In this document: positions 3,066-5,622 of the stretch, piece after piece
Layout of the letters: each line of letters opens with the position of its first letter
Numbering within the stretch: position 1 is the stretch's first letter
IMG/VR virus record: IMGVR_UViG_3300027733_000239
Location: 1-21,317 of that record
DNA from: a virus
Length of the DNA stretch: 21,317 bases
Reading direction: 5' to 3' (one strand)
Position numbers and translations under genes: made by a program
The notes under the pieces: model-generated
What the model was told of the DNA's origin: nothing
What the model saw: the letters and a program-made list of their open reading frames with translations, nothing else
Database searches by the model: none

Positions 3066-3445
3066 TAGTAAAATACCATCCTTCCTATGTGCGTTTTTTT
3101 CCCTTTACCAAACCATTCTTTCTTGGGCGGTATCGAGTCATCATGGAAATATAAAGCATTTGCAACTGGGTTAGTATGTTTATTAAAAACAACCGTATCA
3201 ATAACCAAAAGTTTAGTCGCCAAATACGCCCTTTCATCAACTGGATGGTGGGTTTCATCTTGCACAGCAAACTGATTATTAGCGTAAACGACAGAGCATA
3301 CAGAATAACCCCAACGACCACTATGCAACCTATTACGAATAACATTAATCACCCCAACCTTTTCTTCTAATGAACGAGTATTGACCTCATGATACACTGC
3401 AGTTGCATAACATGCAACATCTAACTCTAAATTATTAATATCCAT
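3065..3445 (-). CDS. SleB-type cell wall hydrolase (Hydrolase_2), probable endolysin
   Basis: The 126 residues fit the SleB/Hydrolase_2 family: ATAVYHEVNTRSLEEK (about 14-29) with the conserved catalytic-type Glu20, GVINVIRNRLHSGRWG (about 31-46), SVVYANNQFAV (about 51-61) and a C-terminal ALYFHDD, then IGRMVFY. Members cleave peptidoglycan glycan strands as lytic transglycosylases or glucosaminidases. There is no signal peptide, so a holin or another export route would be needed if it is the endolysin. Unusually, it lies on the strand opposite the DUF5675 lysis-like cassette. It overlaps both neighbours at TAATG junctions. Confidence 0.85.
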   Translation of the reverse strand: MDINNLELDVACYATAVYHEVNTRSLEEKVGVINVIRNRLHSGRWGYSVCSVVYANNQFAVQDETHHPVDERAYLATKLLVIDTVVFNKHTNPVANALYFHDDSIPPKKEWFGKGKKTHIGRMVFY

Positions 3446-3777
3446 TATGGTTTGTAAGTATTATACACAATAGGATATATAATTTTAGCTCCCACTATGT
3501 TAATAATTTTTCTTCTTATAGAATCTTTATGAATATTAACTACAAAACAACATAAGTCTAATAATTCACTATTAGTAAATAACCATTTAATAGCATCTAT
3601 TTTGCTATTGAAATTAATTTCGTGATTATATCTTGTATTTTTACTATTTTCATTGGTAGGTTTTTGCCTATACAAAGCATCTTCTACTGCTTTCATTAAA
3701 ATACATGTCATTAATTTACCTTCTGGTGTATGTGATAACATACTATTATCATCATTGTCAATTATTTCTTCTAACAT
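3445..3777 (-). CDS. hypothetical protein (110 aa)
   Basis: ATG at 3777 follows AGGAGG at good spacing. The product has an acidic N-terminus, then a helical middle with TRYNHEIN and AIKWLFTNSELLDLCCFV, then HKDSIRRKI. That pattern recurs in phage proteins of unknown role and may form a small helical DNA-associated domain; this is only a resemblance from memory. It heads the minus-strand gene run that contains the hydrolase and glycosyltransferase. Confidence 0.65.
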   Translation of the reverse strand: MLEEIIDNDDNSMLSHTPEGKLMTCILMKAVEDALYRQKPTNENSKNTRYNHEINFNSKIDAIKWLFTNSELLDLCCFVVNIHKDSIRRKIINIVGAKIIYPIVYNTYKP

Positions 3778-3820: not shown

Positions 3821-3849
3821 TTGATTTTGTATTGCAAAATACGCATAAT
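3821..3849 (+). promoter_or_regulatory. predicted sigma70-type promoter of pqqA
   Basis: TTGATT at 3821-3826 and CATAAT at 3844-3849 are separated by exactly 17 bp, putting the start point near 3856 and a leader of about 38 nt. An inverted repeat ATTTTG-N5-CAAAAT (3824-3840) fills most of the spacer, a place where a regulator could block polymerase. Part of it recurs at 3864-3872 (ATTTTGTAT), 40 bp downstream. Confidence 0.55.
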
Positions 3850-3893
3850 TTGCTAGACAAACAATTTTGTATGTCATAAACAAGGAGCAAACT

Positions 3894-3965
3894 ATGTGGA
3901 CAAAACCATCAGCAACTGAAATGCGTTTCGGCTTTGAAGTAACTATGTACGTTATGAACAAGTAA
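3894..3965 (+). CDS. pqqA: PqqA, pyrroloquinoline quinone precursor peptide
   Basis: The 23-codon frame begins MWTKP and ends RFGFEVTMYVMNK. It matches PqqA in length and layout: Trp2, Lys4-Pro5, and the Glu15-x3-Tyr19 pair (EVTMY). In known PqqA the radical SAM enzyme PqqE, with chaperone PqqD, crosslinks this Glu and Tyr, which become PQQ, the cofactor of periplasmic methanol and glucose dehydrogenases. AGGAG at 3884-3888 gives a strong ribosome binding site. The gene stands alone on the plus strand between minus-strand blocks, with its own promoter and no other pqq genes nearby. It most likely feeds host PqqB-E during infection (inference). Confidence 0.93.
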   Translation: MWTKPSATEMRFGFEVTMYVMNK

Positions 3966-3977
3966 TTATTGCATTAT

Positions 3978-4005
3978 GGGGATGTTCCTAAAAAGGAACA
4001 TCCTC
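3978..4005. terminator. strong hairpin between pqqA and the SSB-like gene
   Basis: GGATGTTCCT (3980-3989) pairs perfectly with AGGAACATCC (3994-4003) around an AAAA loop; two more pairs extend it (one G-T). It lies 12 bases after the pqqA stop and overlaps the last codons (DVPF-stop) of the convergent minus-strand gene. There is no T-run on either side, so it may act as a transcript-end stabiliser or mRNA boundary rather than a classical terminator. Confidence 0.5.
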
Positions 4006-4218
4006 ATCTATTGCTTCTTGTTTAGGCTTAACATCGCCTTCTTTCATTTGCACAGAGCCACTAATAAACTTACCCTTAGCACTCTCTCTAATCCATCCAC
4101 TAATTCTAAACTCAATCCCATCTACGTTAGCATTGCCTGTGTAGTCTGGTCGTTTTGGATTGTCGCCCTTATCATTTTTAAATAAAGTAAACGTATTTGT
4201 ATTATCATATTCTGCCAT
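3988..4218 (-). CDS. SSB-like protein with acidic DEDVPF tip
   Basis: This 76-residue product begins with YDNTNTFTLFKND and continues with strands compatible with an OB-type barrel (RPDYTGNANVDG, EFRISGWIRES, KGKFISGSVQM), and it ends EAIDEDVPF. That tip mimics the DDDIPF tail by which bacterial SSB recruits partners. It closes a minus-strand operon with YqaJ exonuclease and ERF annealing protein, so a single-strand DNA binding role in phage recombination is likely. It is shorter than cellular SSB (about 170 aa); a DUF736-like relation is also possible. AAGGAAAT precedes the ATG. Confidence 0.7.
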   Translation of the reverse strand: MAEYDNTNTFTLFKNDKGDNPKRPDYTGNANVDGIEFRISGWIRESAKGKFISGSVQMKEGDVKPKQEAIDEDVPF

Positions 4219-4219
4219 T

Positions 4220-4420
4220 TTATTTCCTTAGTGTTTTATAAAAATTTGCTACTGTGCTACCTGTAAAGTTATCAGGATGACGTTTAATTAATTGACCAAT
4301 AACTTTATCTAATCTTTCCATGTACTCTTCTTGCTTTTCTAAAGACAGTTCATCAAATGTTTGTGCATGTAATCCACTAGATGCTTTAATTAATGCTTGT
4401 CTTTCTATATCGTTAAACAT
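4220..4420 (-). CDS. small helical protein in the recombination operon
   Basis: The ATG shares TAATG with the stop of the exonuclease gene, whose last codons carry AAGGAG as ribosome binding site. The 66-residue product is predicted mainly helical (FNDIERQALIKASSGLH, DELSLEKQEEYMERLDKVI) and ends in a basic tail. No domain recognised. Position suggests an accessory of the exonuclease/annealing system. Confidence 0.65.
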   Translation of the reverse strand: MFNDIERQALIKASSGLHAQTFDELSLEKQEEYMERLDKVIGQLIKRHPDNFTGSTVANFYKTLRK

Positions 4421-5022
4421 TACTTAATCTCCTTAAGTTTATTAATTACATTATCCACTTCTTTTAAAAACTCTTGTACTTCTGTTTCTAATTCTTTTTG
4501 ATAGACAGGGTCTGCCTCTATACGCTTTACAAATATTTGTAAATGTTTTGGAAACATTGGATGGTAACTCACAAAATCACACCACTTACGACCTGTCACC
4601 AAAAGTTGAAACTGTACTTGAGGAACATACTTACTTGGAATGTCTTGTGTCATCAATGTTTCTGTATGCGTACTTCCCATAGGACATTTAATTTCAAGAA
4701 TACCATCATCACCTACCATACCATCAGGACTAGCACCAGCTTCCAAAGTGGGATGCTTAACAAATCCCACCTCTTCCACTTCCCCATGTTCTTGCACATA
4801 CCTTTCCCTAGCAAATTGCTCCCTATCTATACCGTCTTGCATTGCTTGGTTAATATAAGACTCTTGCCTTTCTCCAGTCAATCTTTCACTTACTAACTGA
4901 ATCTTGTAGTTACGTCTAGACGCAGACTCACCACTCTTAATCTTTGCTAATACATCAGCCACACGACTGGCTGTAACCAAACCGAGCCTCGCTTGAAACC
5001 ACTCTTGGGAAAGTTGTTCCAT
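4420..5022 (-). CDS. YqaJ-family (lambda-exonuclease-like) recombination nuclease
   Basis: The 200 residues show the YqaJ fold markers: QEWFQARLGLVTAS at 6-19, then SPDGMV with Asp100 and LEIKCP with Glu110 and Lys112, which form the PD-(D/E)XK active site, then VPQVQFQLLVTG with the conserved glutamines. Such enzymes resect double-stranded DNA 5' to 3' to leave single strands for annealing. It overlaps the ERF gene upstream (TAATG), and together with the SSB-like protein forms a complete exonuclease-annealase recombination set. Length is typical. Confidence 0.9.
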   Translation of the reverse strand: MEQLSQEWFQARLGLVTASRVADVLAKIKSGESASRRNYKIQLVSERLTGERQESYINQAMQDGIDREQFARERYVQEHGEVEEVGFVKHPTLEAGASPDGMVGDDGILEIKCPMGSTHTETLMTQDIPSKYVPQVQFQLLVTGRKWCDFVSYHPMFPKHLQIFVKRIEADPVYQKELETEVQEFLKEVDNVINKLKEIK

Positions 5023-5441
5023 TAGATAAAGTCCTCTGCTTTAGTATCTTTCATCTTAATAACTGCACCTGCACTAGAATCAATAGCGTCATGCTCTACA
5101 ATCTCAAAAGCATTAGTCCATAAATATCTACGCAAGTAAGTTTGTACTGCACCTAAATTCTGAACCTCATGGCAACCTTTTAAGGCAGCACTTGACATAG
5201 GGCATTTAAACTCAATGAATTGTGTAGCATCATTCATATCTGTAATAGTCAATACTGCAATGTCTGTATAAAATGTAACTGTGCCACAGATACCCACCTC
5301 ATTACAAATCTCTTGAATAGTAGGTAAGAAATCACCTAACTCAAAATACTTGTATCCAGCAAATTTATTATGACCAGACTTCTTGAGGTCTGCTACTTGT
5401 AACTTTAATCTTGCTTGCATTAGCTTACTGTGTATGCTCAT
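5022..5441 (-). CDS. ERF-family single-strand annealing protein
   Basis: From ATG 5441 the 139-residue product begins MSIHSKLMQARLKLQ and contains GYKYFELGDFLPTIQEI (about 33-49) and the hallmark GAVQTYLRRYLWTNAFEI (about 105-122), the ERF-family pattern. AGGAG sits at good spacing before this ATG. A longer in-frame start at 5534 would add 31 residues but would overlap the upstream gene by about 110 bases, so it is not preferred. ERF proteins pair complementary single strands made by the exonuclease encoded next. It is on the short side for the family. Confidence 0.85.
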   Translation of the reverse strand: MSIHSKLMQARLKLQVADLKKSGHNKFAGYKYFELGDFLPTIQEICNEVGICGTVTFYTDIAVLTITDMNDATQFIEFKCPMSSAALKGCHEVQNLGAVQTYLRRYLWTNAFEIVEHDAIDSSAGAVIKMKDTKAEDFI

Positions 5442-5622
5442 CGTTTTCTCTCCTGTTACATAATGTAATGTCTCTAATACTTCCTTCTGGTGTTGCTCCA
5501 TCATCACTTGGTCGTAATGCTGTCTTTGGCTCATTTGCTTTCTCCCATTTGTCGTTAGACTCTTTAAGTTCTGCTGTGCATCTGCGTAATTCTTTTACTA
5601 CGTCTTCTAAAGTAAGCGACAT
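5425..5622 (-). CDS. small charged protein (65 aa), leftward operon
   Basis: ATG 5622 is preceded by GGGGA. The N-terminal half (MSLTLEDVVKELRRCTAELK) is a likely coiled helix; the C-terminal half is polar and looks disordered. It overlaps the membrane-protein gene upstream by 16 bases and the ERF start by 17. No family recognised; it may be an accessory of the recombination genes. Confidence 0.55.
   Translation of the reverse strand: MSLTLEDVVKELRRCTAELKESNDKWEKANEPKTALRPSDDGATPEGSIRDITLCNRRENDEHTQ

Follow-up and report, generated by a model that had tools for sequence, protein, structure and literature searches.

A solitary pqqA gene in a putative Methylophilaceae phage as a likely substrate-only auxiliary metabolic gene

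Our analysis identified pqqA, a gene for the 23-amino-acid PQQ precursor peptide, in a phage that carries no other recognizable part of the PQQ pathway. Judged by gene content and conservation, it is likely to be a substrate-only auxiliary metabolic gene that would keep host PQQ synthesis for methanol dehydrogenase (MDH) going during infection. The DNA analyzed, hereafter the window, comprises the 21,317 bases of a virus contig from IMG/VR. It contains a terminase, an SU10-type portal, and a capsid gene, which, along with the presence of pqqA in cultured phages, mark it as a genuine phage genome. PHROG and Pfam searches also recovered a single-strand DNA binding protein (SSB), a YqaJ-type exonuclease, an ERF-type protein, and a cell-wall hydrolase. 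The features around pqqA are as follows.

3445 to 3777, minus strand: divergent upstream neighbor, 110 amino acids, without a Pfam or PHROG match
3821 to 3849, plus strand: promoter-like TTGATT-17-CATAAT, at chance level alone, kept in 27/42 nonredundant relatives
3856 to 3875, plus strand: predicted stem-loop GACAAACAATTTTGTATGTC in the 5' untranslated region, near the expected transcript start
3882 to 3887, plus strand: ribosome binding site AAGGAG, read from the sequence, with AAGGA kept in relatives
3894 to 3965, plus strand: pqqA, 23-amino-acid PQQ precursor peptide (PF08042, TIGR02107; pN/pS 0.117; synteny 65/65)
3976 to 4007, no strand assigned: hairpin where pqqA and SSB converge, candidate terminator (1 versus 0.2 expected)
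3988 to 4218, minus strand: SSB, convergent downstream neighbor (phrog_18154, E = 7e-15)
4420 to 5022, minus strand: YqaJ-type exonuclease (PF09588, 91 bits), the pqqA-independent bait for conservation
5022 to 5534, minus strand: ERF-type ssDNA annealing protein of the SSB/YqaJ block (PF04404, 44 bits)

The open reading frame at 3894 to 3965 encodes the peptide MWTKPSATEMRFGFEVTMYVMNK, followed by a stop. It scored 43.3 bits against the Pfam profile PF08042 (cut-off, 21.1) and 40 bits against the NCBIfam equivalog profile TIGR02107 (cut-off, 20), about twice the curated cut-off in both PqqA models, with E values of 3e-11 and 2e-10, respectively. As the initial annotation had pointed out, the peptide also contains the Glu-x3-Tyr pair, Glu15 and Tyr19; in Methylorubrum PqqA, PqqE with PqqD joins Glu16 and Tyr20 (PMC10906245). 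Profile score and residue pair together confirm membership in the PqqA family, from which a role as substrate of PqqE and PqqD is predicted. Linkage to pqqBCDE, a usual but nonobligatory trait of PqqA, is lacking, and because solitary pqqA is normal in Methylophilaceae hosts (PMC4109929), this leaves the assignment standing. An argument can be made that a frame of only 23 codons, with a single-sequence promoter match at chance level, arose by chance. The profile E values, the conserved location, and the purifying selection described below refute this explanation, and we consider its probability negligible.

The gene stands by itself on the plus strand, diverging from the minus-strand frame at 3445 to 3777 and converging on the minus-strand SSB gene, which agrees with its original description. 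Likewise, tblastn found none of pqqB to pqqE in the window, and neither a PQQ-dependent alcohol dehydrogenase nor MDH was found in this linear fragment of 21.3 kb. Because the window is a fragment, the stronger statement on these absences comes from complete relatives: in MW202481 (circular, 41 kb) and Venkman (38.6 kb), pqqA is present, and neither pqqE nor MDH was found.

Relatives were gathered from IMG/VR with the neighboring YqaJ protein as bait and hence independently of pqqA. This search yielded 80 loci, 65 of which were testable in that they had at least 1.3 kb of sequence beyond YqaJ. All 65, with YqaJ identities of 55 to 100%, carry pqqA in the same place, on the opposite strand and 340 to 690 bases from YqaJ. 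The same-locus search proposed in the initial annotation thus recovered the gene throughout, but the term "insertion" has to be given up: the position is fixed and ancestral in the lineage, and a recent insertion is ruled out by the 65/65 synteny. Among the 42 distinct nucleotide versions of this lineage, the window included, pS was 0.426 and pN was 0.050, giving a pN/pS of 0.117. The ratio was 0.156 for 140 distinct phage versions, a set partly chosen by the pattern GFEVTMY, which makes the ratio for the lineage the fairer estimate. Residues M1, W2, P5, R11, G13, E15, T17, and Y19 are invariant; E15 and Y19 are so both in the loci obtained with the YqaJ bait and in the 140 versions, a set chosen in part by pattern. 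These results show that purifying selection acts on the window gene, a true PqqA frame at a fixed ancestral locus. It is homologous to a metabolic gene of the host and is maintained by selection, as expected of an auxiliary metabolic gene. A divergent phage PqqA, MWTTPAATEIRLGMEITAYVMNR, was seen at the same locus in L313 (near 4385, minus strand), with Glu and Tyr retained.

The strong ribosome binding site described for the gene is present, with AAGGAG six bases from the ATG. The 17-bp-spaced promoter fared differently in two comparisons. From the window sequence alone it was dropped as chance-level, since 2 promoter-type sites were found in the region versus 3.2 ± 1.8 in shuffles; comparison among relatives restored it. 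Specifically, TTGNYT-N17-NANAAT occurs at fixed spacing in 27 of 42 nonredundant relatives versus 0.6% of dinucleotide shuffles, and 25 of those 27 matches lie 71 to 74 bases upstream of the pqqA start, while the spacer sequence diverges. Kinship among the 42 relatives inflates this conservation, which is therefore good but nonconclusive support for what we regard as a credible promoter. Most close relatives are predicted to fold into a small stem-loop at the position matching 3856 to 3875, with a different sequence. Close relatives have either of two quite unlike 5' leaders before pqqA (window 3850 to 3893 and the corresponding positions in L247 to L309), each able to form a stem-loop at that place; cassette exchange or a regulatory site is possible. 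An Rfam search returned no RNA family. The hairpin noted after pqqA, at 3976 to 4007, exceeds chance (1 observed versus 0.2 in shuffles) and also occurs in relatives, with AAAGGGG...CCCCTTTTT at this position in several. It does not have a classical T-run on its 3' side, and because its right arm is C-terminal coding sequence of SSB, some of its conservation may be coding.

The distribution of pqqA among cultured phages follows the host. When the PqqA peptide was searched by tblastn against 50,697 phage records, nine cultured methylophage records matched: Venkman (100%), P19250A, MEP301, MEP401, MEP402, and four Melnitz variants. These are all of the methylophage records found, they represent at least four distinct lineages, and they include P19250A and the OM43 phage isolates that PMC10580990 names; further isolates may exist. 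Other matches were MW202481, a phage from spring water, and two records labeled "Acinetobacter phage." One of the latter (MD-2021a; L007, CAKLQF020000010.1 105210-111263) contains pqqA and a complete pqqBCDE operon beside ppk and looks like a bacterial chromosome filed as phage. Searches of phages with Methylococcales-type and Methylorubrum-type PqqA (tblastn) returned nothing besides the methylophages and the Acinetobacter records. The peptides of Venkman, P19250A, MEP301, MEP401/402, Melnitz, and MW202481 are 23 to 24 amino acids long and 77 to 100% identical. The SSB/YqaJ neighborhood is common to the window, Venkman, and MW202481, and the other cultured phages belong to different lineages and carry pqqA at different loci. 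By terminase, the nearest cultured relative of the window phage is Venkman (72%), followed by HTVC010P-type SAR11 phages (about 46%). No PqqA was found in six sister genomes, namely five pelagiphages and one Rhodoferax phage (HTVC010P, HTVC106P, HTVC204P, HTVC008M, Mosig, and Rhodoferax phage P26218), among which HTVC008M and Mosig are the closest relatives of Melnitz (PMC10580990). With pqqA in all nine methylophage records and in none of these six, the gene tracks the methylotrophic host rather than ancestry among the genomes tested.

Shared peptide sequences and the closest cultured phage indicate, indirectly, that the host of the window phage is most likely a methylotroph of the Methylophilaceae. 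Where methanol or glucose dehydrogenase had been proposed as the beneficiary, the same evidence narrows the target to MDH, and the glucose dehydrogenase part was dropped. All 100 sampled Methylophilaceae genomes contain pqqA, in 1 to 12 copies (median, 4), with one to four copies still held in genomes of 1.1 to 1.4 Mb; pqqC is single in nearly all of the 96 genomes that have one. Isolates show the same imbalance of many pqqA copies and a single pqqC, and their pqqA copies are solitary, away from pqqBCDE (PMC4109929). Three PqqA peptides are letter-for-letter common to hosts and phages, and the most frequent peptide is the same in hosts and phages. Such identity bears on the alternative of a decoy, in which the phage peptide would occupy PqqD/PqqE, lower host PQQ, and stop methanol oxidation or another PQQ-dependent process. 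A decoy PqqA would likewise be under selection as a peptide and would follow PQQ-making hosts, yet it should lose its reactive residues, whereas every variant retains Glu15 and Tyr19 and many phage peptides equal host substrate peptides. We therefore consider a decoy very unlikely.

At the DNA level, the pqqA genes of four viral contigs (L027, L053, L058, and L128) are identical to a sampled host copy, which suggests recent host-phage exchange. These four copies are also what favors viewing phage pqqA as passenger DNA, gained from the host by recombination or as an integration site and functionless in the phage. The window copy, however, shares no more than 93% identity with any host copy sampled, purifying selection is strong despite synonymous divergence, and the locus is fixed over deep divergence with its promoter conserved. 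Passenger DNA is thus contradicted by pN/pS and synteny and is highly improbable.

Beyond cultured phages, a degenerate-codon scan of IMG/VR recovered at least 120 contigs with pqqA. Among the matches listed, tblastn found no pqqB to pqqE in the window or at 119 other viral pqqA loci. In 50 pqqA-bearing phage and virus records, pqqE was above the cut-off in none and an MDH-family dehydrogenase was present in one (L050), so that it is the substrate alone that selection retains. That one, a 72-kb virus contig (L050/G112), pairs a PQQ-dependent alcohol dehydrogenase at 34049 to 35731 with pqqA at 41890 to 41952, as in Lake Baikal. The immediate neighbors of viral pqqA fall into 59 upstream and 68 downstream protein clusters, and terminases of the viruses that carry it belong to several PHROG families (phrog_2, 38, 979, and 36964), beside T4-like modules. 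This diversity suggests that unrelated phages have acquired pqqA repeatedly or passed it among themselves. Whether nearly all Methylophilaceae phages hold solitary pqqA as a core gene, gained several times by unrelated lineages because the precursor becomes the limiting consumable of methanol oxidation in infection, seems to us evenly balanced. Nine loci (L011, L020, L025, L031, L032, L035, L082, L086, and L123) encode PqqA types unlike those of Methylophilaceae, e.g., MKWETPSFEDLRFGFEVTMYINASN, and may come from phages whose hosts are different PQQ producers, for instance methanotrophs. Two pqqA copies occur on a 52-kb virus contig (L262/G123), at 1939 to 2001 and 40829 to 40891.

The proposed supply of substrate would work as follows. 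The phage would express PqqA as a single-gene unit from its own promoter, host PqqE and PqqD would crosslink Glu15 to Tyr19, and a host protease, PqqB, and PqqC would then complete PQQ. Loaded into MDH, this PQQ would allow methanol oxidation to go on powering phage replication. PqqA is consumed one for one per PQQ, while PqqBCDE are catalysts (PMC10906245); because the enzymes are reusable, only the precursor would need to be carried. If host transcription drops in infection, the consumed peptide should run out first. A conserved PqqA without another PQQ gene supports the earlier proposal that the phage supplies the substrate peptide only, and this role fits the gene content of Methylophilaceae, methanol oxidizers that have one set of pqqBCDE and multiple copies of pqqA. 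These multiple copies also mean that one more from a phage may matter little unless host expression drops. Furthermore, PQQ in Acetobacter rose by 29% with raised pqqAB versus eightfold with pqqABCDE (PMC7936290), which shows that the precursor does not limit PQQ in every case; limitation, if any, may be confined to the postinfection phase. Alternatively, PQQ made from phage PqqA could serve another PQQ enzyme, redox protection, or release on lysis. The gene itself speaks for PQQ precursor supply only, and MDH enters through host biology. Nevertheless, the carbon and energy supply of Methylophilaceae depends on MDH, and the pqqA-bearing L050 also has a PQQ-dependent alcohol dehydrogenase, as reported in PMC7678222; a target other than MDH is unlikely.

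A comparison can be drawn with psbA of cyanophages. The logic is alike, in that the phage carries the fastest-used part of the host's energy system, but psbA encodes a photosystem subunit and pqqA a peptide consumed for a cofactor, and the two have no family relationship. Phage-encoded PqqA is itself already known: the initial annotation had asked whether related phages with pqqA were described, and one is, the Lake Baikal methylophage population VP_266, reported in 2020 with PqqA alongside methanol dehydrogenase (PMC7678222). VP_266, like the window phage, is a predicted Methylophilaceae phage for which the same PQQ-supply role was proposed. However, it is T4-like and has methanol dehydrogenase, whereas the window phage is a Venkman relative with an SU10-type portal and pqqA alone, and that paper, unlike our study, does not mention pqqA across methylophages. 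Virus-borne pqqA is also listed in a reservoir survey (PMC13188868). Compared with the multicopy pqqA of hosts (PMC4109929), the phage gene belongs to the same peptide family, often with identical sequence, and shares the solitary state off pqqBCDE; host copies are scattered over the chromosome, and the copy in the phage is preceded by a conserved promoter of its own and holds a constant position next to the SSB/YqaJ/ERF block. The main texts of the Venkman, MEP301, MEP401/402, and Melnitz papers mention no PQQ genes, the sole mention of PQQ being as a medium component, and no paper in the literature searched names "methylophage" and "pqqA" together. Within that literature, the pattern of a solitary, core, host-tracking, and overlooked pqqA in methylophages appears to be new, the novelty lying in its prevalence, core status, host tracking, and missed annotation.

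OM43 and related Methylophilaceae form a link between primary-production methanol and carbon dioxide (PMC9004378). The medium published for OM43 includes PQQ (PMC9004378), so that an effect of phage pqqA could be masked there. If methylophages routinely bring the PQQ precursor, infection directly touches the cofactor supply of methanol oxidation, and would offer a clean, testable case in which a phage contributes nothing to a pathway but the substrate that the pathway uses up. Published phage genomes lack this 69-base metabolic gene in their annotation because gene callers skip it, as the initial annotation had anticipated; pqqA is annotated in none of the cultured-phage records examined. In MW202481 (L001, 2067 to 2195, minus strand) and Melnitz-1 (L006, 2961 to 3056, minus strand), an antisense hypothetical protein is annotated over pqqA and is probably a miscall that hides the true gene.
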